A DNA stretch of 64,000 bases from Xenopus tropicalis. Lineage: Eukaryota; Chordata; Amphibia; Anura; Pipidae. The DNA lies in NCBI RefSeq assembly GCF_000004195.4, contig NC_030683.2, forward strand, positions 77,554,910 to 77,618,909, given 5' to 3'. The notes below the pieces were generated by a model. The model was given only the letters and a program-made list of their open reading frames with translations, made no database searches and was not told the DNA's origin. This document shows positions 3,356 to 58,700 of the stretch, piece after piece. The stretch's first letter is position 1. Each line of letters begins with the position of its first letter. The translations under genes were made by a program, and so were the position numbers.

Positions 3356-18633
<15,278 letters not shown>

Positions 18634-19124: not shown

Positions 19125-22100
19125 ATGTATGTGGGTAGGATGTTTGTCAGTTCATTGAAGTTTCCATGCCTCGGCATCGGAACATGGAAGGGGGCTCGCC
19201 TATTGAGACAGAGGTCGTTCGGTACCAGTGCCTGTGCCTTGAAACAAGATGATTTTATGAAAGGCAAGTTCTAAGCATTTCGCTATTCCTGAACCCAGAT
19301 TTGTCAAAAGGCAAGCCAATGTCAGGCTGTATGCTTATCACCTTCAACCCAATAAATAGCAAAGATAATCAGTCATAGATCGTTTAGAAATTGACTCTGT
19401 AAATTATATTGATTCGGAAAATGGAAATTAGCTGTGCAGTTTACGCTGTACATGTGCATTCTGGAGTTACATTTATTACAAATACAAAAGACTTCTCTAC
19501 GCCTCTCTCAAGCCTGCTGTGTTACCCTGCTTTTTATGTAGCCTTCTAGGCTTTAGTTTTCCCATAAAGCAAGCTGCTCTATCGGTAAGATCTCCTCAAA
19601 CCACCTGCCAAGCTGGAGATGTCTACATTATATTAGGTATCCTTGTGCAGTAAGCATACTCCTATACCTGCACCATGAGAAATAACCATTCTCAGAATGA
19701 AGGTACACAGATGCTTAACAGATTTATTTTTATTACAATATGCATGATAGATTTCCTTAAGGATAGGTTTAGAGGAGTTCTGCTGTAGATTGTAAGCTCT
19801 TTTGGGCAGGGCCCTCTTCACCTCTTGTATCGGTAACTGATTGCTTTATATGTTACTCTGTATGTCCAATGTATGTAGACCACTTATTGTACAGCGCTGT
19901 GGAATATGTTGGCGCTTTATAAATAAATGTTAATGTAATGTAATGTATGGTTAGTTGTTTTGTCTTTTAAGAGATTCATGCTTAAAGGAAATAGCTTACA
20001 CCTCAGTTACCATTTCTTTTTAAGCAGAATAGGAGACACATGACAGCTAGAAAGGTTGTTTTGCCTCTGTTGATATAAGAATGAATAATCCCTAATCCCT
20101 GCTTTATATATTTTGCATTAACAAAGTATGGCATATATGTAACCTACAAATCAATCCTAAAACATTCTTCCTCTGTAAAACCCACAGTTCCATGCAGCCT
20201 GACTGTAGAAGGGAACCTGCGGCGTCCCTGTTTACATGCGCAGCTTGGTGCTGCGCTTTAATGAAAATTAATTTCAGTATTGACACATTAAGAGCAACAG
20301 CATTTTAGGGGAAATGTAAAAAAATTGTAATAAGGTGCATGATTTTAGTTGGTCACTTTGTTTTGTCTTTCGCATCTCTCTAGAACTGGACAAGAACTTT
20401 GTACAGTTCCACAAGAAACTGATGGATAGTCTACCCACCAGTGACTGGAGTCCATTTACACCCATTGGAGACCTACCACCCGAGCGAGTTGATGTAGTCA
20501 TAGTTGGAGGTGGAGTGATGGGATGGTCTATTGCGTATTGGCTAAAACAGAAAGAAAACCGCAGGGGTGCTCTCAGAGTTGTGGTGGTGGAGAGGGATCC
20601 AACAGTAGGTTGCCAAGAAATAATGCATGTGTATTCTTTAATATCTGTGTAGAAGCTATAGACTATGTCATGTGCTGTAGGACAGTTTATATATTAGAGT
20701 TCTACTTTTAAGTATCATAATTAGGGATTCACTGAGTCCAGGATTCTGTATGGAATTGGCCAAGATTCGGCCGAATCCATGCTCCTGGCCGAACCAAATC
20801 AGAATCCTTAAAATCATGTGACATTTTCTCACATAAACATGGAAGTAGAATTTTTTTTGCCGCACGGGGCTATAGAGCATAACTCTTCCGTATCCTAATT
20901 TACATATGCAAATTAGGATTTGGTTCAGTATTCAGACGACTATGAAAATTGTGGATTTGGTGCATCCCTAATAATATATTGCCCATGTCAGAACATGCAA
21001 CAACAGCTACTGTGTAGTTCAGTTTTTTCTGTCACAATCATGCTTTAATTATATCTGTGGTCACCAACACTTCCTACCGTAAACTGATTTTATGAAGGGA
21101 TAGTTGCCTTGGTAAGTATCCCTAAGTTGTCGCTATTATAAAGAAGCTGGTGACATATTTGTGACACAATGCACATCCACTAAAAATTCAATTGCATTTA
21201 ATGGACTTAGGGTAGATAAATGGGAAACAGTAAATTAAGTTTTATGCAGTAAATGGCACTGGGCAGTACATTCACGGACAGCAGGCAACCTTGTGTTAGA
21301 ACAGACTCAAAGTTCATTACATGTGATTAAATAAAGACAACTGAGTAATCTATTAAATTATAAAGGTACGCACCAATGTGATGCTGTACTAGGGTTGGTG
21401 GTATATTTAGCAATAATTGGTTAATGTGAAAGCAAAGTTATGTTTGCCTGTTTGCGAAAGGGTATTGGACCATGTTACTAGTACAGATTGGCTGCCTCAT
21501 ATAGTAAAAAAGTCTTTAAAAATAACTAAACATCTTTTACTCCTGTGCCATAGCTATAGGTTACTTAAACCACCCCCCACAACAAAGTGTAATTAATAGC
21601 CAATATAACCTTACCATCATATTACATAATAATGATTTATGGTGTTGATCCGGTTTACATACAGTGGCATGAGCATGGTGATAAAACTCTTGTGTTCTGG
21701 AGTGCAGGGTTATTCTGCACTTACACTGGTAGTTGCTCAGGCTGCTTCAGGATCAAATCTAGCCTGGCACTTGCATAAAAGGGTGGTTTAGGCACAGAAG
21801 AATCCTTTTTGATTGTTGAGGCAATAACAAATAAGTCTGCAGTTTGTCAGGATCAGTATGACAATTTGACACATATTCTTGGGTTTTTCTTTGAAATTAC
21901 ACTAATATTTACTTAGTAGTACAGTAGATGTGTAACTGTCTCCTGAAAAAGTTGCTGGCATTTGCATGGATAAATTCATTTTAGATGACAAAACTCTAAA
22001 TTTCCCTGTGTGCCCAGTACCCTTAAGTGACAGAAATTAAAGGAAAAGGAAAGGCAAAGTCACCTGGGGATGCCAAAAAGTTAGGCACCACCAAGTGACT

Positions 22101-25100
22101 TTAATCGCTTACCTTCTACCCCGGGCTGGTGCCCCTGAGAGAACAGCACCAGCCTGGGGTACCTGTAGCGAGTGCTTCCTTCTTCCTGAACGATCGCGCG
22201 CACATGCGCAGTAGAGCGAAAAGCCGAACTTTGAACAGAGAAGTCGGCTTTTCACTCTACTGCGCACTCTCAATTGGCTGCAGCGCGAGTAGGAAACGCT
22301 CTTGACAGGTACCCCGGGCTGGTGCTGTTCTCTCCTAACAGGGGCACCAGCCCGCGATTTGTCACTTGGGGGTGCCTAACATTTTGGCACCCCCAAGTGA
22401 CTTAGCCTTTCCTTGTCCTTTAAGAGAACACTATTAAACTCAATATATTCTCTTTCAGATTTGTAATTAGTTTTTCCTCTTGTTCATTCGATTAAGCAAA
22501 TTAGAGCTATATGACCTAAAAGCAGTTTAAAGGACAACTAAAGGTAAAAAAAAATTAAAGCTGCAATTAATGGCAATCAGGTGGACATATACTTACTGTT
22601 AATGATTCATTCTAGTGTTCAGTAGTTTTTGCACAGTGCTCCTTCGTTTGCTAAAAAACTTTCTACCTGTAGTGCAATGCACAGAAAGCTTCTTATTCTT
22701 AATGAAACTTATTTTGGGCGCACGCATGCGCATTCCTTGCTTAAGGCGCCCCAAACATGCGCAGTAGCCAGCTTTCAGTCCTCTGCTGTATTGATGACGC
22801 TTGGGTCACATGACATTTCCGAGTGTTATCATTGACCTCTCTGCCCCTCCTGTCAGCTCACATCGCCAATCACACTTACGCTTCTGCTCAGGGCGTTACT
22901 ATAGCAACGCCCTGAACAGAAGCAACGCTGATTTTTCTCTTTAGTGTAAGAGAGCTGAGGTGCAGTTTAGGCTAGCGAGAGAGCGAGAGTGGGGTCACTA
23001 TGAGGAGCATGGGCAGTACGAAGTATAGGCAGGGGAAGTGACGTGGTCGCAAATAAAATGGCGGCCACGAACTCTGGAAAGAAGCCGATCTTCTATGCAT
23101 AAGTGCAATAATTATGTCGTTATATTTTAAAAAATAAAACAGTGTTTCAGGAGAGGGGGTTTCTTTCTTCTTTAATGTTGCTGAGACATACTTTGCTCTT
23201 TCCTCAGTATTCCCGTGCTTCTACAGTCCTGTCAGCTGGAGGCATACGTCAGCAGTTCTCCCGACCAGAAAATATCCATATGTCACTCTTCTCAGCCCAG
23301 TTTCTGCGAAATATCAATGTAAGGAGAATATTATAGTATCCTTTATACAGTGGTGTGAAAAACTATTTGCCCCCTTCCTGATTTCTTATTCTTTTGCATG
23401 TTTGTCACACTTTAATGTTTCTGCTCATCAAAAACCATTAACTATTAGTCAAAGATAACATAATTGAACACAAAATGCAGTTTTTAAATGAAGGTTTACA
23501 TTATTAAGGGAGAAAAAAAACTCCAAATCTACATGGCCATGTGTGAAAAAGTGATTGCCCCCCTTGTTAAAAAATAACTTAACTGTGGTTTATCAATTTC
23601 AATTTTCAATTTCAATATCAATTTCTGTAGTCACCCCCAGGCCTGATTACTGCCACACCTGTTTCAATCAAGAAATCACTTAAAGGAACAGTAACACAAA
23701 ATTTTCACTTTAAAGAGATCAATTCTAAATACTTTTTTAAAGCTATGTAACATTAAAAAAATGCAATATTGTAAATAGTTTTTTAATAAATTACATTGCC
23801 ACTGACTTACTGGACCAAGCTCAAAAGGCGATACGGCGATGGGGTAGACTTCCGGTTTAATCCGGAAGTTGATTGAGTGCATTCTTCAGAGTCCTTTTTG
23901 AAGTGATTTATAGGCTTCTACTGATCTGGCACAGAGAGGGTAAGGAGAGGGACAGGAGACGGACCTTTTCACCTCTTTCGCTGGGTCTGCGTGTCTGTTA
24001 CGAGGAGCGCTGCCTGAGCCTGCACTGGGAAAGGGAGGGGGTGTAGGGGGATAGGAACGGAAGCAGGCTGCGAGACTTGGGAGAGATGTGCTGCCTGAGC
24101 TCAATAAATCAATGGTAAAGTAATTTTTTTTAAAAAACCACATATACTATTGCAATCTTTGTATGCTATATTTGCTAATAAAAGTATGTATAAAGGATAT
24201 ATTGAATGTAAAAATTTTGTGTTAGATTTCCTTTAAATAGGAGCTACCTGACACAGAGAAGTAGCCCAAAAGCACCTCAAAAGCTAGACATCATGCCAAG
24301 ATCCAAAGAAATTCAGGAACAAATGAGAACAAAAGTAATTGAGATCTATCAGTCTGGTAAAGGTTATAAAGCCATTTCTAAAGCTTTGGGACTCCAGCGA
24401 ACCACAGTGAGAGCCATTATCCACAAATGGCAAAAACATGGAACAGTGGTGAACCTTCCCAGGAGTGGCCGGCCAAAATTACCCCAAGAGCGCAGAGACA
24501 ACTCATCCGAGAGGCCACAAAAGACCCCAGGACAACATCTAAAGAACTGCAGGCCTCACTTGCCTCAATTAAGGTCAGTGTTCACGACTCCACCATAAGA
24601 AAGAGACTGGGCAAAAACGGCCTGCATGGCAGATTTCCAAGGCGCAAACCACTTTTAAGCAAAAAGAACATTATGGCTCGTCTCAATTTTGCTAAAAAAC
24701 ATCTCAATGATTGCCAAGACTTTTGAGAAAATACCTTGTGGACCGACGAGACAAAAGTTGAACTTTTTGGAAGGTGCGTGTCCCGTTACATCTGGCGTAA
24801 AAGTAACACAGCATTTCAGAAAAAGAACATCATACCAACAGTAAAATATGGTGGTGGTAGTGTGATGGTCTGGGGTTGTTTTGCTGCTTCAGGACCTGGA
24901 AGGCTTGCTGTGATAGATGGAACCATGAATTCTACTGTCTACCAAAAAATCCTGAAGGAGAATGTCCGGCCATCTGTTCGTCAACTCAAGCTGAAGCGAT
25001 CTTGGGTGCTGCAGCAGGACAATGACCCAAAACACACCAGCAAATCCACCTCTGAATGTCTGAAGAAAAACAAAATGAAGACTTTGGAGTGGCCTAGTCA

Positions 25101-28100
25101 AAGTCCTGACCTGAATCCTATTGAGATGTTGTGGCATGACCTTAAAAAGGCGGTTCATGCTAGAAAACCCTCAAATAAAGCTGAATTACAACAATTCTGC
25201 AAAGATGAGTGGGCCAAAATTCCTCCAGAGCGCTGTAAAAGACTCGTTGCAAGTTATCGCAAACGCTTGATGGCAGTTATTGCTGCTAAGGGTGGCCCAA
25301 CCAGTTATTAGGTTCAGGGGGCAATTACTTTTTCACACAGGGCCATGTAGGTTTGGATTTTTTTTCTCCCTAAATAATAAAAACCCTCATTTAAAAACTG
25401 CATTTTGTGTTTACTTGTGTTATCTTTGACTAATAGTTACATGTGTTTGATGATCAGAAACATTTTGTGTGACAAACATGCAAAAGAATAAGAAATCAGG
25501 AAGGGGGCAAATAGTTTTTCACACCACTGTATATTGCTGACATATTCCACACTCCTTTGTAGAGATAATCATTTAGTGGCTGCTAGTGAAAAAAGAACAC
25601 ACTGTAGCCAATTATCTTATGTTTAGCTGGCTTATGTTTTGTTTGAGATTTATCTTTTCATCCTAATTCTCTAGAATAAAATTCTGTTTTAGAGTTGATG
25701 TCTAAGGCCAATAACACATCAGGTATTTCATTCGAGTGTAAAGATGGTGTAAAGGAGTCAGACCAAAAGCACCTTGTGCCATAGCCCTAAATAAATTGTT
25801 TTTGGTTTGCAGGAACATCTTGGTGTTGTCAATGAGGATCATATAGACATTCAGTTTAACCCATCGGGATACCTCTTTTTGGCCAGTGAAGAAGGTGCTA
25901 CTGTAATGGAGGAAAACTACAATGTCCAGAGGTAACTGCAGCATGGTTAATTTTAATTCCATACCTCTGTCTCTGGGTAGAGGAGTTGCAGAGGGTTATT
26001 TCCATGTTTTTTTTCTGGACTACACATATATGATCAATAACAGTGATAAGCAACATTGTAATTGTAAGAAAGCAAGATTAGGATTTTTTTTTTTTTTTGC
26101 CTCCCCCCCATAGAGAGTGTGGAGCCCAAGTAACACTTCTGTCACCACATCAGTTGAAGAAGAAGTTTCCCTGGGTCAATACAAATGGTGTGGCACTTGC
26201 TTCCTATGGTGGGTTCTCTCATTTCACAGAAATAACACTACAAACATTGATTCCGGACATGCGATATATAGATATAGAACCTGTTATCCAGAATGCTTGG
26301 GTTCTGGAGGTTTCCGGATAAGTGGTTTTTCCATAAATTGAATCGCATAACTTAGGTCTACCAAAATCATTTAAATATTAATCAAACCCAATTACTCAAA
26401 ATTGTTTAATTTTAAATTTGAATTATTTGATTAAAATGGAGTCTATGGGAGATGGCTTTCCGGTAATTTGTTCTAGATAACTGGTTTCTAAATAATTGAT
26501 GCCATACCTGTGTATTATTTGTCATAAATTTTAGATTTTAAAGGACAAGGAAAGAAATGATTGCTGTATTCACTGAAGTGTATTTAATTTACATTAGGCT
26601 TAGAAAATGAAGGTTGGTTTGACCCTTGGACGCTGCTCAATGCTTTCCGGAGAAAAGCTCTCTCTATGGGGGTTTACCATTGCCATGGGGAGGTAACAGG
26701 TACTTAGCTCCTTTTTTTTTCCTCTAGTTTAACTTCTAATTGTACAATCCTAGTAATATGTAGTTGTAGAATTATCTAGCATCTCTTTTCCCCAGGTGCA
26801 CATGGCATTTAGAGGGAGTGGGATACTTACAAAGTCTAAGTCTCCATATTACTACTAGGGCATACAAAATTTAAGTAAAGACCAGTATTGCCCCTAACAA
26901 CATATCTGGTCTATAATTGCAGATTTCAGCACCACTAAGCGTGAAATGATGACTGCAGATGGTGACCCTGTGACATTCAGTAGGATCGGACATGTTACTG
27001 TAAGTCCTGAGAACTCTGTTCAGACAACTGCTATAAATAGTAAGTTAGGCTGTTTGTGGGTAGGGTTTACTGCATTTTGTATTTAGTGTTGAAATAATGC
27101 TTAAGTTTTCCAATAAAAGAAATGGGGAACATTGAACTCAAAGAATGCAAATACTTACTAAAATTACACATAACCGTTTCCAGAGAGTGAAGTAGGGATC
27201 GGAGAGGGACAATTAATCCAGGTGGGACTTAAAAGTTTCAGGCCGGAGGGGATGCCCAGGAAATTGACATAACTGTCGGTAGAGGTCCTTAAACATGCTA
27301 TGAGGGATATCTCAACAACAAATTGTTTCAATTTTACATTTGTTCTTCTTGAATATTAACATTAATAACAAGAAAAGCTCAAGCTGCATCATTTCGTGTT
27401 TTGTGTTTTTGATTGTAGGTACTAATGCCAAATAGCCTAGAGAGCCAAAATGTAGAGTGTGCCCTAGTGATCAATGCAGCTGGTGCCTGGTCCTCAAATG
27501 TTGCTGAATTGGCTGGGATAGGTATCGGGCCATCAGATTCATTAGAATCGGTAAAGCTTCCTGTGGAGCCCAAAAAGAGGTAAAGGTTTTAATATAATGA
27601 GATTTCTCTGGCTCTGTGGCCACTCCAACTATTTGCCAGAACCCACTCAAAGAATTCACACATCCTATTCACAGCATTTTTTCTGATGCAGAACACTCTA
27701 AATGACCATTATTTATTAATAGCCTACATCGTGGCCCTTGGAGCTAGAAAGAAAGTCACTGTCAGCTGCTAATGGGAATGGATCTTTTCATATGTGTACA
27801 TTGTTACAACTCTTACCAATTAAAGCCACGTATTAATGTTAAATAGGTTTGGCATAAGGGAAGATGGTGTCCCCCAAAACAGTAAACCAAAACTGAGTTT
27901 ATAGCCATAATTTAACTTTGCTATCTTCTTTCTATGCCAGATATATATTTGTGGTTCACTGCCCTGATGGACCTGGACTGGACTGCCCATTGCTGATTGA
28001 CAGTTCAGGAGTCTATTTCAGGAGAGAAGGACTTGGAGGCAACTATATAGCAGGAAAATCCCCAACTGAGGTAAAAAGAATCACAGAAAAGTAAGGTGCT

Positions 28101-39236: not shown

Positions 39237-39545
39237 TTAAGAGATACCGTATATACTCGAGTATAAGCCGATTCGAATATAAGCCGAGGTACCTAATTTT
39301 ACCTAAGAAAACTGGAAAAGCCTAGGGTTATTTAATCATTAAATCAATTTCAGAGCATGATTATTGAGACTGACGCACGGGAGCCAATTTGATATATTTA
39401 ATTTTTCAGCAGCAGCCTATGAGCTGCAATGGTGCCTGAGCAGAAAGGTCTGGATAACTGCCCTCTCAGAACAATGGCATGGCACCCACCCAATGAGCAG
39501 CAAATCTTGATGGTGGTAATTGCTCAGTATATCATTGTCCTTTAG

Positions 39546-39575
39546 GGCACTGGCACATGGGAAGATTAGTGGCTG
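39546..39575. repeat. End fragment of the GGGCTCTGGCACACGG palindromic MITE
   Basis: GGGCACTGGCACATGGGAAG followed by ATTAGT matches the terminus of the element at 10,178-10,514. Only one end is visible, beside the EXOSC6-like fragment. Confidence 0.5.
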
Positions 39576-39639
39576 TACTAGTAGGATGAGGGAAAGCAAG
39601 GGGTGCAGAGCTGGTGTGCCCCACACTAATCCCCACATG

Positions 39640-40050
39640 CCCAAGCACTGACCTGATTAAGGGTTGGCAAGAGGCTCAGGTTCATGGTCCCCCCACTCCA
39701 TCCTCTTCATCATCATCATCCGGATCCAGCAGAAGCTCCCCACCAGGGCCGCGGCTTAGCCCACATCCGAGCGCCAGGTCAACCATCTCTATTCCAGCGT
39801 CGGCCAAAGCCAGAGAGGCACAGGACACGGCCCTAGGCAGCGCAGAGACGCGATCCTCCAGCACTAGGACCCACACTATCACCTCCGCTCGAGGGTAGCG
39901 ATCCAATCGCACGCCCGGTTCCAGGCTTTCCTGTAGCTGCAGCCCAGCCTGGTGGGGAGAGGGCCCGGCGGGGCAAGAACCAGACCAGGGTCCGCAGCAG
40001 GACAAAGGAGCCCAGCGCAGGTCACAGAGCAGACGGCCCCGGGTCTCTGC
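39640..40050 (-). pseudogene. exosc6: EXOSC6 (exosome subunit MTR3)-like gene fragment
   Basis: EXOSC6 is an RNase PH-fold subunit of the RNA exosome ring. The minus strand reads [16 protein letters not shown], then [53 protein letters not shown] and LLLDP, which follow, in order and with little gap, roughly residues 85-200 of the vertebrate protein as I recall it. A poly-G frameshift near 39,685 is followed in another frame by [15 protein letters not shown], matching the next strand of the protein. The first ~85 and last ~50 residues are missing. The fragment is conspicuously GC-rich against AT-rich flanks. Human EXOSC6 is a single-exon gene, so absence of introns does not separate a DNA capture from a retrocopy. 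No poly-A tail is evident. It is flanked by a dispersed repeat on both sides. Confidence 0.75.
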
Positions 40051-40364
40051 TCTATCCCATCCCGCGCTCCCGCGGCCCTCGAGTATAAGCTGAGGGTTAC
40101 ATTTTCAGCACATTTTGGGCTTTGAAAGCAGTGTGAAATAATCATAGCCTATTCTTGCGCAGTCCCACCCCCACCCCTGAAGACTGATAAATGGTAGAAT
40201 TCTCTCACCTTTTACCTGATTTAAAATAAAGCATCTGTAATGTCTGTATAGTGTACATAATTGCCTCTTGTAGTACCACCTCTCAGGACAGCAAAACTCT
40301 CCCAAAAGTTGCAATAGAGCACCTCGGTCTATAATTTAGAGATAAATAGCTGCATCATGATATT

Positions 40365-40760: not shown

Positions 40761-43700
40761 TCAGTCCTTTTTGGATTTGTTCTTCTTAAATAGCTCGGCC
40801 ACAGATGGTCCTCCAGCCACTTTCCTCTTAGCCCCTACAACACAAGAAAGACATGCACAACAGGAAAATGTGTCAGCAAATTAGATACTATAGTTTAAAT
40901 AGTAAGCTTCTTTAGGGTGATAGTTATAGCTAGGCTGCAAGAGATGGTATTATGCCATAAATCATTCACCCCTGGTTTTATGAACAGTGTCACAGATACA
41001 GTGATCTGAAAAAGATTACTACATATGTTACAGTGTATAATTTACAAAACATTACAGTAGAACCCCCATTTTACATTTTTTCAAGGGACCAGAAAAAACG
41101 GTATAAAATCAGGGAAATGTGTTATGCATTATATATCGCTGGAGCCACAGATAAATAATGTAAAGTGCAGATGACTGGTGTGGGGCCCAGTAGCTTTTAG
41201 TTAGGCCATTGTTATATGTGTGTAGGGAGTCAATTCATATTTATTAACTAAAATCCAACACAGAGGTATTTAATTTAAGCATGATGTGATTTGGGATATG
41301 CACTGTTTATATATCTGTAAATTCTTATACACAGAAAAGTAAATACAAATAATTTAAAAGATTTGTGTAGCACAACCTGTTCTTCAAGAAAGGGATGCCA
41401 TTACCATTTTTGCTACTCTGTCCTGAATCTTTGTCCACTTCCGCAGTAGATCCTGATCTCCTGGCATAAGCAGCCTTCATACGCTGAATATTTTGTTTGC
41501 TTGCTACATCATGTTCTACAATAGGTTTTGGGTAGTCTTTACCAATGATGCAGCCTGCCCTCTCTTGTAGGCTGCGAGGAGCTTTCCATGGTTCATAGAT
41601 ATACTCAGCTGGAAACTTCTTCAGAATTGGTAAATATTTCCTGGCAAGAAAAAAGTAAAAGCATTTGCACTGACCTAATTTAAGATAAATCATAAAAAAA
41701 AAATAAAGCCCAGCTGCAACTTGACTTAAATTATTACTGGACCAGAATGCTACACTTTGCAATACATAAATAACTCCTGCATTCTCATGTGCCACATCAT
41801 CATCCAATTCACGACCCTTTCTCTAAATATTTAAACAAGCCTTTATTAAGAGTCTTGTGTCAGTAAATGACAGACAAAAATACAAATTATGTAGAAATAG
41901 TATGAGATGAACCCTGTGGGATAAAATTTTTAATGTGTAAAAACCACGAAAAACACTTATAACCTTGCATATATAAATGCTGTTGAGGTCCTATAGAGGT
42001 CAATAGGAGTTGACTTAGGCAAAATGTAACAATCTTTATTTCATTTATGATTTTGAAAAATGTGGTTTTCATGTTCTTAGTTTTCAATTCGGATTGTTTA
42101 ATAAATGACTAGACTTTAAAATGTGTCTCCACCTAACGCATGAAGACGCGTTTCATGTATATGTATAAAAAACACATAAACGCTCTCGGTATTGTGAGTG
42201 TTTATTGGTGTATTTATATAGACCTTTCAGATAAAGCTTACTTAATTTTAACATTTATTCTCCTTTAAATATCATTTTAATAGGTGCTTCTCCTCAGTTT
42301 TAATTTAGTCAATTAAAATAGTCTTCACAGGACATTCTTTTCTCCATAATTTTATTTATGCAAATTACTTTTTATGAATATGGAGAAAACTGTTGTTATG
42401 AGTTAGACATTTACAGTTATCAGGAAATTATAGTATCTACTTAGGATATACTGTATTACAGCTTTCAATAATGTCCATCTCTGGTACAGAAAAAAAAAAA
42501 AAAACATGGGGGTGCTATAAAGATAGCGTAACTATCTCAAAGTCAGGTAGATAAATAAATAGTTCAACCCTATTTGCAACCGAGTTACTTTCTGAGATGC
42601 AGTCTTTGCAACTCGATAGATTTGGTCTTTTGACGCATAACACAGATGCCTAGGACTGCGTTGTTTTTGGATTATTGTAGAAAGGTCTGTATTGGCGCCC
42701 ACTGGTGGATCCTTTCCACTGTTTGGCACACGCGCATTTAGGTTTACTTTGCATGACCGGCCATCTTTTTAGTGGGTAAATGTGGACACACTTGCACATT
42801 GGATATTCTGAAGCATGCCCAGTACTATTTCTGCCCTATTGGCAATTTCCGTATACACACTCCAATTCGGCGTACTTGCGGCAGCTATTTATTAGGGATC
42901 CATCGGGATGGATTCGGGGGTGCATCCCAACTATTTATACATGATGACCTTTAGTGTTAGTTTGCAAGCTTGAAAGAAGTCCTTTACTGGACAAAACGGG
43001 TTGGTCTGAGCTATGCTTTGACATGTTCTAATGAGCGATTGTAATAGACTGAAATCTATAAGTGCAATATTTTATCTTTAAATAGATCATTTTAAACTTA
43101 CTACACCAGAGAGTGCACCCTTCCATCTGTTTTGCTTTATATATCTCCCTAGTATGTTATGTACAAGCTTCTGCCTCTCATGAGTCACTCAGTGACTGCT
43201 TCATCACCTGATAGAGGTATGGATATTATTAAACCATGAGGGATTGTCCCAATTTTACAATTATGTGTGTGCAGGCATCATTTTGAGTTTTATCATTAAA
43301 AACCAACCCCTTGATATACGCAATGTAAAAGCTATTTCTGTGAATACAGATATAATCATTGTTAAGTTTAAATTCAATTGCTTTATTGGTCTGGAATAGT
43401 AAGTATACACACTTGATATAATCACCATTTTTGTCTGTCTTCTTTCCAAAAGCTACTGGAGAGTATACACGAAAAAACTGGTGGAAGAAGGTGCTGGCAG
43501 ACAGCCATTGCCAGTTTCCTGCATTGAGTGACCAGTCTGCATCCAGGAGCAACTCCTCAAAGACCTAAATCAAAGGAACAACAATGTCAGACAGAAAAGG
43601 GAATTGTATCTTAAGATAAAACACCAAATGGAAAGCACAATGGTGCCTAAGCTGCTTTACTCTTTCTGGACTTAAAAAAAAACAAAACAATTTTGCTTTT

Positions 43701-49700: not shown

Positions 49701-52700
49701 CTACTCCAAACTACAGAGTCGCAGTGCTTTCCCAAAATTGCTAGTTTTGGTGAAATACCTGAAAATCACATCAAATCTTCCACTTTCAAGCACCATATCT
49801 CCCACATAACATTAGGTACCAAGAAAACACACCCTAAATATGAAAACCAAGGGTCCACTGAACAGTTTGATGCCCATTGTGCATAGGATCAGCACTGTAT
49901 CTGGCATTTAGAGACCCCAAAAGGAAGTTAGTGCATACAAAGTGTATACACTGCAATATAAGCTACCGGCATGTGCATTATGCGGCATAAGACCCCCTAA
50001 CAGTAAGGAGACCCTAGAAAACTATACATTTTCCGAAAGTACACAATCTGACAAAACAAAAATGGGTAAATACATCTTTCTACTGCAAACTACCAAACTA
50101 CAAAGCTATGCTAAACAGAACGATTTTTTTGACATTTCTGAAAATTGTCACAAAGCTTGCATTTTACCCCATTATGTACCCCCACATTTTGTACCGTATC
50201 AACATGAAACATTCTAAATATGAACACAAGGGGTCTACTGAACAGTTTGATGCCCTATATGCATAGATTTACCAAACTATGTGGGGTACAGGGGCACCCA
50301 AGTAAAAATAGTGCATATGAATTTTCACATAAGATGCTTCGGCTCATGCAGTTTTTGCACCCGGTATGTGTATTATGTGCCATACGACCACCTAACAGTA
50401 AGGAGACCCTAGAAAACCATATATTTTCCGAAAGTACACATTCTGACAAAACAAAAATGGGTAAATACATCTTTCTACTACAAACTACCAAACTACAAAG
50501 CTATGCTAAACAGAACGTTTTTTATGACATTTCTGAAAATTGTCACAAAGCTTGCATTTTACCCCATTATGTACCCCCACATTTTGTACCGTATCAACAT
50601 AAAACATTCTAAATATGAATGCCAGGGGTCTACTGAATAGTTTGATGCCCTATATGCATAGATTTACCAAACTATGTGGGGTACAGGGGCACCCAAGTAA
50701 AAATAGTGCATATGAATTTTCACATAAGATGCTTCGGCTCATGCAGTTTTTGCACCCGGTATGTGTATTATGTGCCATACGACCACCTAACAGTAAGGAG
50801 ACCCTAGAAAACCATATATTTTCCGAAAGTACACATTCTGACAAAACAAAAATGGGTAAATACATCTTTCTACTACAAACTACCAAACTACAAAGCTATG
50901 CTAAACAGAACGGTTTTTATGACATTTCTGAAAATTGTCACAAAGCTTGCATTTTACCCCATTATTTACCCCCACATTTTGTACCGTATCAACATAAAAC
51001 ATTCTAAATATGAATGCCAGGGGTCTACTGAACAGTTTGATGCCCTATATGCATAGATTTACCAAACTATGTGGGGTACAGGGGCACCCAAGTAAAAATA
51101 GTGCATATGAATTTTCACATAAGATGCTTCGGCTCATGCAGTTTTTGCACCCGGTATGTGTATTATGTGCCATACGACCACCTAACAGTAAGGAGACCCT
51201 AGAAAACCATATATTTTCCGAAAGTACACATTCTGACAAAACAAAAATGGGTAAATACATCTTTCTACTACAAACTACCAAACTACAAAGCTATGCTAAA
51301 CAGAACGGTTTTTATGACATTTCTGAAAATTGTCACAAAGCTTGCATTTTACCCCATTATTTACCCCCACATTTTGTACCGTATCAACATAAAACATTCT
51401 AAATATGAACGCCAGGGGTCTACTGAACAGTTTGATGCCCTATATGCATAGATTTACCAAACTATGTGGGATACAGGGGCACCCAAGTAAAAATAGTGCA
51501 TATGAATTTTCACATAAGATGCTTCGGCTCATGCAGTTTTTGCACCCGGTATGTGTATTATGTGCCATACGACCACCTAACAGTAAGGAGACCCTAGAAA
51601 ACCATATATTTTCCGAAAGTACACATTCTGACAAAACAAAAATGGGTAAATAAAACTTTCTACTGCAAACTACCAAACTACAAAGCTATGCTAAACAGAA
51701 CTGTTTTTGTGACATTTCTGAAAATCGTCACAAAGCTTGCATGTTGCCCCATTATGTACCCCACATTTAGTAACGTACCAACATAAAACACTCTAAGTAT
51801 GAACGCCACTAGTCTACTGAACAGTTTGATGCCCAATATGAATAGATTTACCAAACTATGTGGGGTACAGAGGATGCCAAATTGAAATACAGCAGACAAA
51901 ATGTCCATGTGCAAAGACAAGTAACAAAGAACAATGTAAAAAGCAATAACATTGATAAAGATAAAAAAAAAATCACTAAAATCATTTTTTTTTTTTTGCC
52001 TAATAATATCTGCGGGCAGAATAACAGTTTGAGTATTTTGGCTAGGGCAAATAAGTTTTACAGACAAAGTCAAGCAAACAACAACTATGCATAACTGAAA
52101 ATGCTATAAAATGGCTAAACATGCAGTAAAATACCCAAAAATCCACCAAAATCACAGAAAATGTAGTAGAAACACCAAAATAATACACAAAAGGTATTGC
52201 GCAGTGCGGTTAGCGAAAACACTATCCGCAATGGCAATAAAACATTTTTTTCAGGCAAGAATAAAAACGATGCGATTAGAAAAAAAAAAATAATTACAAA
52301 ATTACATAAGTGTGTAAGTGTGTGTGTACATGTGTGTAAAATGTGTTTTGTGTGCATGTGTGCGAGTGTGCAACCAAGTGTGAGTTTTCTCTAAGTGCTG
52401 TAAGTGATGAATGTTTGAAAACCTCCCAAAAATGCATGTGTGTGTGTGTAAGTGTGAGTATAAGTGTGTATTAGTGTAATAAATGTGTGATTGTGTGTTT
52501 GTGTGTGTATTTGCCACTTACTTGGGGTCTAGAAGATCAGGATCTGCAGGAGAAACTCGATCTGGCACAGCAGCATCAGCCCATGTGAGGGGGCGGGGCA
52601 GGAAGCAGGGGGGCCAGAGGGGGAAGCTGCGGAAGGGAGAGGAGCTGCACAGAAAGCCACGTGGATGGCAGGTAAGTCCCATGGGGCCCCTGGGTGATCG

Positions 52701-55700: not shown

Positions 55701-58700
55701 ACGGGAAAAGATAAGGGCATGGATTAGTGTTTTAGCTGTTCCTTGTGAAAGAAAGGGGCATATATGGGGCAATGCTGCGGAGGAAAAAGCTGCAGGTTTT
55801 TAATATGGTTAGAGAAGGAGAGGGGCTGGTCAAAGACGACCCCAAAGCAGCGTGCTGAATTAACAGGGTTAATGGTCATGCCGTCAGTAGTGATGGTGAA
55901 AGGAGGAGAAGGGCTAGGTTTGGGTGAGAAGACCATGAGCTCTGTTTTAGCTAGGTTAAGTTGGAGGTGGTGTTGGTTCATCCAGGAGGAGATAGGCAGG
56001 AGGCAGTAACAATCTGGGTTTGAACATCAGAGGTTAATGCAGGGGTGTCTAAATATTTCTGGATGTCATCTGCATATAAGTGATATTTAAGACCAAAAGA
56101 ATGTCACCTAAAGAGAGAGTGTACAGGGAGAACAGTAAAGGACCAAGCACAGAGCCCTGAGGCACCCCCACACTAAGGGTAGAAGATTTGTTAGCAAGAA
56201 CAACAGAGAAGGAGCAGTTAGAGAGATAGGGAGAGAACCAGGATGCAGCCTGATCCCGGATACCCAGAGAAGAGAGAATTTGCATAAGGACAGAATGGTC
56301 GACAGTATCAAAAGCAGAGGAAAGGTCCAGGAGAATGAGGACTGTGTCCTTTGGCCTTGGCAGTCTGGAGTTCATTTGCCACTCTACATAAGGCCGTCTC
56401 GGTGGAGTGCGCAGCCCGAAAACCAGACTGCATAGGGTCCAGCAGATTATGGGTACAGAGGAAGTTAGTGACACGGGAGAAGACAAACGTTCCAGGAGTT
56501 TAGAGGCTAGGGGCAGGAAGGAGATGGAACAGTAGTTAGAAAGGCAGGACGGGTCCATTGTAGACTTTTTAAGAATGGGGTTGACACAAGCTTGTTTGAA
56601 TAGAGAGGGAAAAGTACCAAAAGCCAGAGAGGAATTGAATATGTGGGTAAGAGCTGGAGTAAGAGCAAGGGCACACTGTTTTAGTAGCGATGAGGGCATA
56701 GGATCCAGTGAGCAGGTAGTAGGCAGAGATGAACAGAGAAGCTGAGAAACTTCAGACTCTGTTACAAGATCAAAGGAGCTGAATACGGAAGGAGGAGATT
56801 TGGGAAGGTTAAGATTACCGGTATTTGAAGGTTGGGAAAATTGTTTGCGGATAGAATCGACTTTGCTTTTAAAGAAGTCAGCAAAGTCTGCTTTGTGAAG
56901 TGACTCAGTCATTGATTTCAGCTTGAAAGTTTCTATTTATACATATTAACTAATATTACTGCCAAGGAAATCAATGTTTTCTGCTTTTTAGACAGTTTCT
57001 CATATAGAGTTTTTTTAATAATGTTTTAATGTACAGTGGCTTGCAAAAGTATTTGGCCCCCTTGAACTTTTCCACATTTTGTCACATTACAGCCACAAAC
57101 ATGAATCAATTTTATTGGAATTCCACGTGAAAGACCAATACAAAGTGGTGTACACGTGAGAAGTGGAACGAAAATCATACATGATTCCAAACATTTTTTA
57201 CAAATAAATAACTGCAAAGTGGGGTGTGCGTAATTATTTAGCCCCCTTTGGTGTGAGTGCAGTCAGTTGCCCATAGACATTGCCTGATGAGTGCTAATGA
57301 CTAAATAGAGTGCACCTGTGTAATCTAATGTCAGTACAAATACAGCTGCTCTGTGACGGCCTCAGAGGTTGTCTAAGAGAATATTGGGAGCAACAACACC
57401 ATGAAGTCCAAAGAACACGCCAGACAGGTCAGGGATAAAGTTAGAGAAATTTAAAGCAGGCTTAGGCTACAAAAAGATTTCCAAAGCCTTCAACATCCCA
57501 CGGAGCACTGTTCAAGCGATCATTCAGAAATGGAAGGAGTATGGCACAACTGTAAACCTACCAAGACAAGGCCGTCCACCTAAACTCACAGGCTGAACAA
57601 GGAGAGCGCTGATCAGAAATGCAGCCAAGAGGCCTATGGTGACTCTGGACGAGCTGCAGAGATCTACAGCTCAGGTGGGGGAATCTGTCCATAGGACAAC
57701 TATTAGTCGTGCACTGCACAAAGTTGGCCTTTATGGAAGAGTGGCAAGAAGAAAGCCATAGTTAACAGAAAACCATAAGTCCCGTTTGCAGTTTGCCACA
57801 AGCCATGTGGGGGACACAGCAAACATGTGGAAGAAGGTGCTCTGATCAGATGAGACCAAAATTGAACTTTTTGGCCAAAATGCAAAACGCTATGTGTGGC
57901 GGAAAACTAACACTGTACATCACTCTGAACACACCATCCCCACTGTCAAATATGGTGGTGGCAGCATCATGCTCTGGGGGTGCTTCTCTTCAGCAGGGAC
58001 AGGGAAGCTGGTCAGCGTTGATGGAAAGATGGATGGAACCAAATACAGGGCAATCTTGGAAGAAAACCTCTTGGAGTCTGCAAAAGACTTGAGACTGGGG
58101 CGGAGGTTCACCTTCCAGCAGGACAATGACCCTAAACATAAAGCCAGGTCAACAATGGAATGGTTTAAAACAAAACATATCCATGTGTTAGAATGGCCCA
58201 GTCAAAGTCTAGATCTAAATCCAATCGAGAATCTGTGGCAAGATCTGAAAACTGCTGTTCACAAACGCTGTCCATCTAATCTGACTGAGCTGGAGCTGTT
58301 TTGCAAAGAAGAATGGGCAAGGATTTCAGTCTGTAGATGTCCAAAGCTGGTAGAGACATACCCTAAAAGACTGGCAGCTGTAATTGCAGCAAAAGGTGGT
58401 TCTACAAAGTATTGACTCAGGGGGCTGAATAATTACGCACACCCCACTTTGCAGTTATTTATTTGTAAAAAATGTTTGGAATCATGTATGATTTTCGTTC
58501 CACTTCTCACGTGTACACCACTTTGTATTGGTCTTTCACGTGGAATTCCAATAAAATTGATTCTTGTTTGTGGCTGTAATGTGACAAAATGTGGAAAAGT
58601 TCAAGGGCGCCGAATACTTTTGCAAGCCACTGTATATTGATTGTTGAGTGATTAATTGAATTAGGTATTTTTATTTAGAGAATTAAATAATTTTAAGGTA

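Follow-up and report, generated by a model that had tools for sequence, protein, structure and literature searches.

The window, by which we mean the whole 64-kb stretch of Xenopus tropicalis DNA that was analysed (G000:C7:77554910-77618909), includes exons of a cryptochrome gene and, about 640 bp past the last cryptochrome coding exon and in sense orientation, a transposable element bearing part of exosc6. The cryptochrome exon at 41382-41636 matches XENTR_v10018699 with 100% identity over 93% of an 85-aa query. A DAO-bearing exon is taken by us to be that of foxred1, and positions 50208-51402 hold a 395-bp unit present three times head-to-tail, with a 134-codon open frame in each. The features discussed below are, by window position:

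20320-20652: exon bearing the start of an FAD-dependent oxidoreductase (DAO; E 9.7e-9)
39245-39246: target-site TA at the left end of the element (assigned from the TA beside both inverted terminal repeats of other copies and from the empty-site comparison of copies L040 and L041, both given below)
39247-39269, plus strand: left inverted terminal repeat (TIR), CCGTATATACTCGAGTATAAGCC, which with the TA forms an exact 25-mer abundant genome-wide
39270-39397, plus strand: left arm of the transposon (multi-locus alignment and BLAST map)
39398-39411, plus strand: misplaced right-arm fragment TTAATTTTTCAGCA at the left cargo junction (AGGGTTAATTTTTCAGCA in copy L031), matching 40097-40110 (compared with the L031 and L049 sequences)
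39410-39573, minus strand: cargo, exosc6 intron 1 (parent positions ~2094 to 1933, 89% identity to the parent locus), with a MITE remnant at 39540-39573
39566-39652, minus strand: cargo, intron 1 adjoining exon 1 (parent 1648-1518), with ~44 bp of the parent absent
39653-40077, minus strand: cargo, 3' part of exosc6 exon 1 (parent 1517-1086), with the native donor CAG/GTC at its end
40078-40127, plus strand: right arm, first half of a subterminal palindrome (clear to 40119, BLAST end 40127; compared with copies L031, L046 and L049)
40764-40835, minus strand: last coding exon of cryptochrome XENTR_v10018699 (tblastn of P0039, 100% over 24 aa)

The original prediction, made from the sequence of the window, was that an EXOSC6-like segment on the minus strand lies within a dispersed repeat. 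Protein comparisons bear out the first part. One open frame is present on the minus strand at 39682-40104; its portion at 39682-40005 matches human EXOSC6 (PDB 2nn6_F residues 112-209) with an E value of 3.5e-22, and the whole frame matches Pfam RNase_PH (PF01138; E 1.8e-8, 35.3 bits with a cut-off of 25.5) and X. laevis MTR3 (82% identity, E 1.3e-59). The EXOSC6 match is real, so the objection that a protein search might return none falls away. Compared with the true X. tropicalis exosc6 gene, the window copy shows the single frame slip that had been proposed, 1 nt within a poly-G tract, as well as a 5-nt deletion near its start. The similarity to EXOSC6 resumes past the slip, and the parental frame contains no stop in 139 complete codons. 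The stretch is GC-rich as described, with values of 0.56-0.72 in 50-bp bins from 39650 to 40100 compared with 0.41 for the window overall. Repeat sequence in the same orientation was likewise found on both sides: the repeat (CTCGAGTATAAGCC/T; CTCGAGTATAAGC) is located at 39256-39271 and 40078-40093, on either side of the exosc6-like stretch.

The element at 39245 to about 40127 belongs to a non-autonomous type of TIR transposon that duplicates a TA target site, and this copy is damaged. It is larger than was proposed, with the cargo running from 39410 to 40077/40078. The TIR 25-mer including the TA has 2378 + 2407 = 4,785 exact occurrences in the genome, and its reversed control has 0. In an alignment of 20 loci, examined in part, and in the BLAST map, the left arm of the window copy lacks 20 bp and a further ~110-230 bp (the length depends on an AT repeat) present in other copies. 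At the right, the outermost ~27-35 bp including the TIR are missing, and no further match to the TIR core was found anywhere in the 64-kb window. The cargo includes the exon 1/intron 1 junction and carries internal deletions; its two intron pieces overlap by 8 bp, which is a repeat at the deletion point. The palindromic-MITE end noted 65 bp beyond the exosc6-like segment is real (39540-39573) and matches the ends of a MITE at 10173-10517, but it belongs to the cargo, because the same piece sits in exosc6 intron 1. That MITE of the window is a complete palindromic element with TTTAGGGCTCTGGCACACGGGGAGATTAGTCGCC ends, an end of this type is present in exosc6 intron 1 and hence in the cargo, and related pieces occur at 13671-14349.

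The true exosc6 locus was found on another contig, and comparison with it identified exon 1 and intron 1 as the parent of the cargo. Its features are:

C4:74927000-74930200 (L045): exosc6 locus, with exon 1 from position 867, the donor after 1517, intron 1, and exon 2 from 3024
G000:C4:74928085-74929093: captured genomic segment, end of exon 1 and start of intron 1, ~1,009 bp

The annotated exosc6 protein, P0016 (XENTR_v10011732), matches this locus at 100% over residues 1-62 and 159-212, and X. laevis MTR3 aligns unbroken to exon 1 across the stretch missing from P0016. The annotation lacks an exon 1 stretch that the genome encodes in frame and is probably a wrong gene model. The parental locus is unambiguous, lies elsewhere than the copies, and is not between these TIRs; no TIR was found in the 3.2 kb read around it. 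BLAST aligns the window cargo with parent positions 1648-1086 and 2113-1933, the intron match starting at ~2094 by inspection. The original capture spans at least 1086-2094, or 1,009 bp, of which 432 bp are exonic and 577 bp intronic.

A whole-genome search with the parent segment, in which repeat counts are lower bounds, gave 17 candidates, and all 17 when scored proved to be the parent and 16 element copies on contigs C1-C9, the window copy (L050) included. Repeating the protein search with longer candidates brought up no additional X. tropicalis copies. Both TIRs (recognised as a 24-mer with at most 5 errors) are present in 12 of the 16 copies, which measure 1,067-1,428 bp, and in 11 of these 12 a TA adjoins both TIRs, the sole exception being L031, with no TA past its right TIR. 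In L034, L036, L044 and L050 the right TIR was not recognisable. The donor CAG/GT is kept in 15 of the 16 copies (CTG in L031), and ~44 bp lying just after the donor of the present-day parent are absent from all 16, which represents either a gain in the parent or a loss in the founding copy. Related elements devoid of exosc6 also occur: none of the 16 retrieved (L047-L049 and L051-L063) shows a match to the parent cargo inside the element, and the one match, in L048, is outside it. The proposal that a mobile repeat had captured an exosc6 segment and multiplied apart from the true gene is thus upheld, and more strongly than it was put, with 16 copies and a parent on C4. We conclude, with a probability of about 0.95, that these copies constitute a Pack-TIR family, here designated Pack-exosc6, in which a TIR transposon received ~1,009 bp of exosc6 DNA, and that the window contains a damaged copy.

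The copies might instead be a young protein family maintained by selection. Twelve X. tropicalis UniRef entries containing the cargo (P0001-P0004, P0006, P0007, P0009, P0012, P0014, P0015, P0025, and P0026) are named as exoribonuclease-domain proteins, long open frames are present, and 12 of the 16 copies are free of stops in the aligned parental frame. However, the remaining 4 contain a stop in that frame, frame-changing gaps occur in 12 of the 16, and the copies encode no more than part of a single RNase PH-like domain. The substitutions private to the copies (i.e. common to less than 75% of them) comprise 73 nonsynonymous (N) and 36 synonymous (S) changes, 109 in total, distributed over the codon positions as 36/34/39. 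When the same changes were placed at random with base and CpG context kept, 75.4 +/- 4.8 N changes were expected (P 0.33 for as few) and 35.4 third-position changes compared with the 39 observed, so that, taken together, the private changes behave neutrally, in a test pooled over copies that is compatible with constraint on a single copy. The changes common to at least 75% of the copies include only 2 N and 10 S, versus 8.2 +/- 1.6 N expected (P 0.0004), a deficit consistent with purifying selection acting on the parent. A selected family is therefore very unlikely. The captured frame shows no constraint, and its openness in the window reflects youth, not function; of the two explanations first offered for the long frame, a recent event stands and residual constraint is unsupported. 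As for the 12 UniRef entries, 4 (P0001, P0002, P0009, and P0014) include translated transposon ends; 5 match retrieved copies with no less than 99% identity across 63-99% of the entry, 4 reach this identity over short stretches only, and 3 fall below that level and perhaps derive from other assembly versions. For annotation, it is of use that these 12 entries carry transposon-borne exosc6 fragments.

Ordinary segmental duplication of a region containing exosc6 and a transposon is still less probable as the source of the family, even though one pair did arise in this way. L040 (C1:104842284-104842985) and L041 (C1:104880088-104880792), 38 kb apart, share 2.8 kb including their flanks at 99%, and are one insertion doubled by segmental duplication. 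In the other 4 of the 5 pairs compared (L042/L043, L033/L034, L033/L035, and L032/L037), collinear similarity stops at the element; 3 of these 4 show a short non-collinear repeat match in the flanks, and L034 also lacks the right part of the element. For L042/L043, the similarity covers the whole element (1,297 bp at 97.2%, gaps counted). The 16-bp flanks differ among all 16 copies except the L040/L041 pair, and the 16 loci amount to 15 insertions with differing flanks. An empty site could also be found: joined with a single TA, the flanks of L040/L041 form an uninterrupted repeat and align without gaps over 170 bp, at 85.9%, to the MITE at window 10175-10344, the comparator being a paralogous MITE of the same family and not an orthologous locus.

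Human EXOSC6 consists of one exon, and the exon part of the cargo on its own would look identical to a retrocopy, whether inside or flanked by a repeat. However, the copies continue past the splice donor into intron 1 sequence (in the window as far as parent position ~2094), none of them matches exosc6 exon 2 when compared with the parent by BLAST, and 16 copies of related structure exist, 12 of them with both TIRs. Since the cargo holds an intron, it is not a retrocopy, an origin to which we give almost no weight; the lone retrocopy named as the contrary case in the original prediction likewise fails against an intron-bearing, element-bound segment in 16 places. Helitrons, which are reported to capture gene fragments in eukaryotes, a bat element among them (PMC4778049), are not known to have inverted terminal repeats or a target duplication. 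Rolling-circle capture of this type is equally implausible here given the inverted terminal repeats at both ends and the TA target duplication with an empty site.

In a FastTree tree of the exon and intron cargo, weakly supported at its base, L031, L044, L046, L036 and the window copy form deep branches, and the remaining 11 copies form a later group. A second exon piece of 37-45 bp is located upstream in 12 of the 16 copies. The right arm of 10 of the 11 later copies contains ~200 bp of another dispersed repeat, L034 being without that end. This extra sequence (L032:1986-2200) was considered as a second gene capture and rejected as a repeat, as 10 of its 17 candidates were copies of the element and 7 were other dispersed places. 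L046 keeps parent 1869-1106 in one piece. It could conceivably be a second, separate capture, as it retains a different part of the intron, but it has the same right junction and the same 44-bp absence as the other copies. We read it as an earlier branch, the loss of parent ~1649-1932 in the other copies being a later event or L046 having branched first.

The copies differ from the parent by 4.3-8.1% in the exon, by 3.5-9.2% in the first intron piece, and by 6.4-11.1% in the second (15 copies having the second), and the cargoes of L042 and L043 diverge by 0.3%. Eight residues at which X. tropicalis and X. laevis differ gave 114 readable states across the 16 copies: 111 are of the tropicalis type, none is of the laevis type, and 3 are neither. 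The tropicalis residues at sites 13, 20 and 48 are absent from X. laevis, Rhinophrynus and Hymenochirus and look derived; the capture therefore occurred after the tropicalis lineage had split off.

The junctions give some indication of how the capture may have happened. In the founder-type copy L031, the left arm is followed by a short filler, then by an 18-nt right-arm stretch (AGGGTTAATTTTTCAGCA; compare L049), and then by the exosc6 intron. The overlap between transposon and parent at this intron-side junction is 2 nt (CA); a 5-nt microhomology (CAGCA) was considered there and rejected by base count. At the exon-side junction, the exon ends in GCGGCCC and the right arm goes on with TCGAGTATAA, with an overlap of 1 nt (C). 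With microhomologies of just 2 and 1 nt, which alone are unremarkable, the case for template switching rests mainly on the misplaced right-arm fragment, its best sign. From these features we infer that i) during repair or replication, synthesis on a broken transposon copy may have switched template to exosc6 and later returned, ii) a piece of the transposon's own right arm would have been left behind at the intron-side junction, and iii) the chimera could then have been moved to the 16 loci by a transposase supplied in trans from an autonomous relative.

TA target duplications are a feature of the Tc1/mariner superfamily, and Pack-exosc6 has them; TA target sites occur in other superfamilies as well. 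No autonomous element or transposase was found; one longer TIR pair was read (L099, 1.8 kb), with no transposase-like frame. The interior of L099 (C1:15950400-15952270), which has the same TIRs, is a tandem array of a ~57-bp unit. Separately, the window contains DDE_3 transposase fragments at 24727-25311 and 57846-58415, to which no connection of the Pack-exosc6 ends was seen, and open frames resembling the N-terminal part of a DDE_3 transposase at 24212-24726, just before the first fragment.

As in Pack-TIRs, the cargo of Pack-exosc6 lies between both TIRs (12 of 16 copies), the parent is elsewhere, the origin is at the DNA level, and a TA duplication is present (11 of 12). Plant Pack-MULEs (PMC8277862) are likewise TIR elements that pick up gene pieces and multiply serially. 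Pack-exosc6 differs from them in superfamily, terminal repeats and target size, its own target being TA. At least 4,785 exact 25-mer ends belong to its TIR family, and the interiors are strongly different in the few family members read (L031, L047-L049, and L099). The family might even be a Pack-MULE-like capture engine in a vertebrate, with exosc6 one of many segments and the cargo, an exon with its splice donor, a possible mobile exon, but we regard this as rather doubtful.

In plants, there is ample documentation of gene capture by TIR transposons; in animals it is sparse, and multicopy cases there are rare. The survey of Tan et al. 2021 (PMC8277862) gives 370 Pack-TIRs from 100 animal genomes, of which 25 are in X. 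tropicalis, and four multicopy families, of which three are in this frog; one X. tropicalis case has three copies (CAPSL) and one has five. The view that such events are little described in amphibians is therefore only partly right. The filters described in that paper (a length ratio of 80-120% and a unique top BLAT hit) would probably miss Pack-exosc6, with its 16 similar copies and large internal deletions. Its main text does not name exosc6. Among the literature titles listed, none describes a Pack-exosc6 family, and the sole match to the TIR string is, by title, a Drosophila paper.

Among the closest systems for comparison is the CAPSL 5'UTR in hAT-N8_XT, as described in PMC8277862. In both, a gene fragment lies between DNA-transposon TIRs, several insertions have their own target duplications, the parent is at another locus, the cargo is GC-rich, and the frog species is the same. 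The CAPSL case differs in that its element is a hAT, whereas Pack-exosc6 has a TA target, and in its 3 copies (5 in the other frog case) as against 16 loci; moreover, the Pack-exosc6 cargo crosses an exon/intron junction and later underwent deletions and a partial duplication. Ssk-FB4 of Drosophila melanogaster (PMC8277862) is polymorphic, nearly whole-gene and reported to be under positive selection, whereas Pack-exosc6 is a fragment, neutral as a set, and 4-8% from the parent exon. With sixteen places in the genome, Pack-exosc6 is an unusually large animal example of a gene piece taken up by a cut-and-paste transposon. Its parent is known, its breakpoints are exact, both early and late subfamilies are present and one empty site is available, so that models of capture and spread can be tested on it. 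Pack-exosc6 is thus a multicopy Pack-TIR of a kind already known, and it ranks among the better animal examples for its copy number, its exon/intron cargo and its resolved history.
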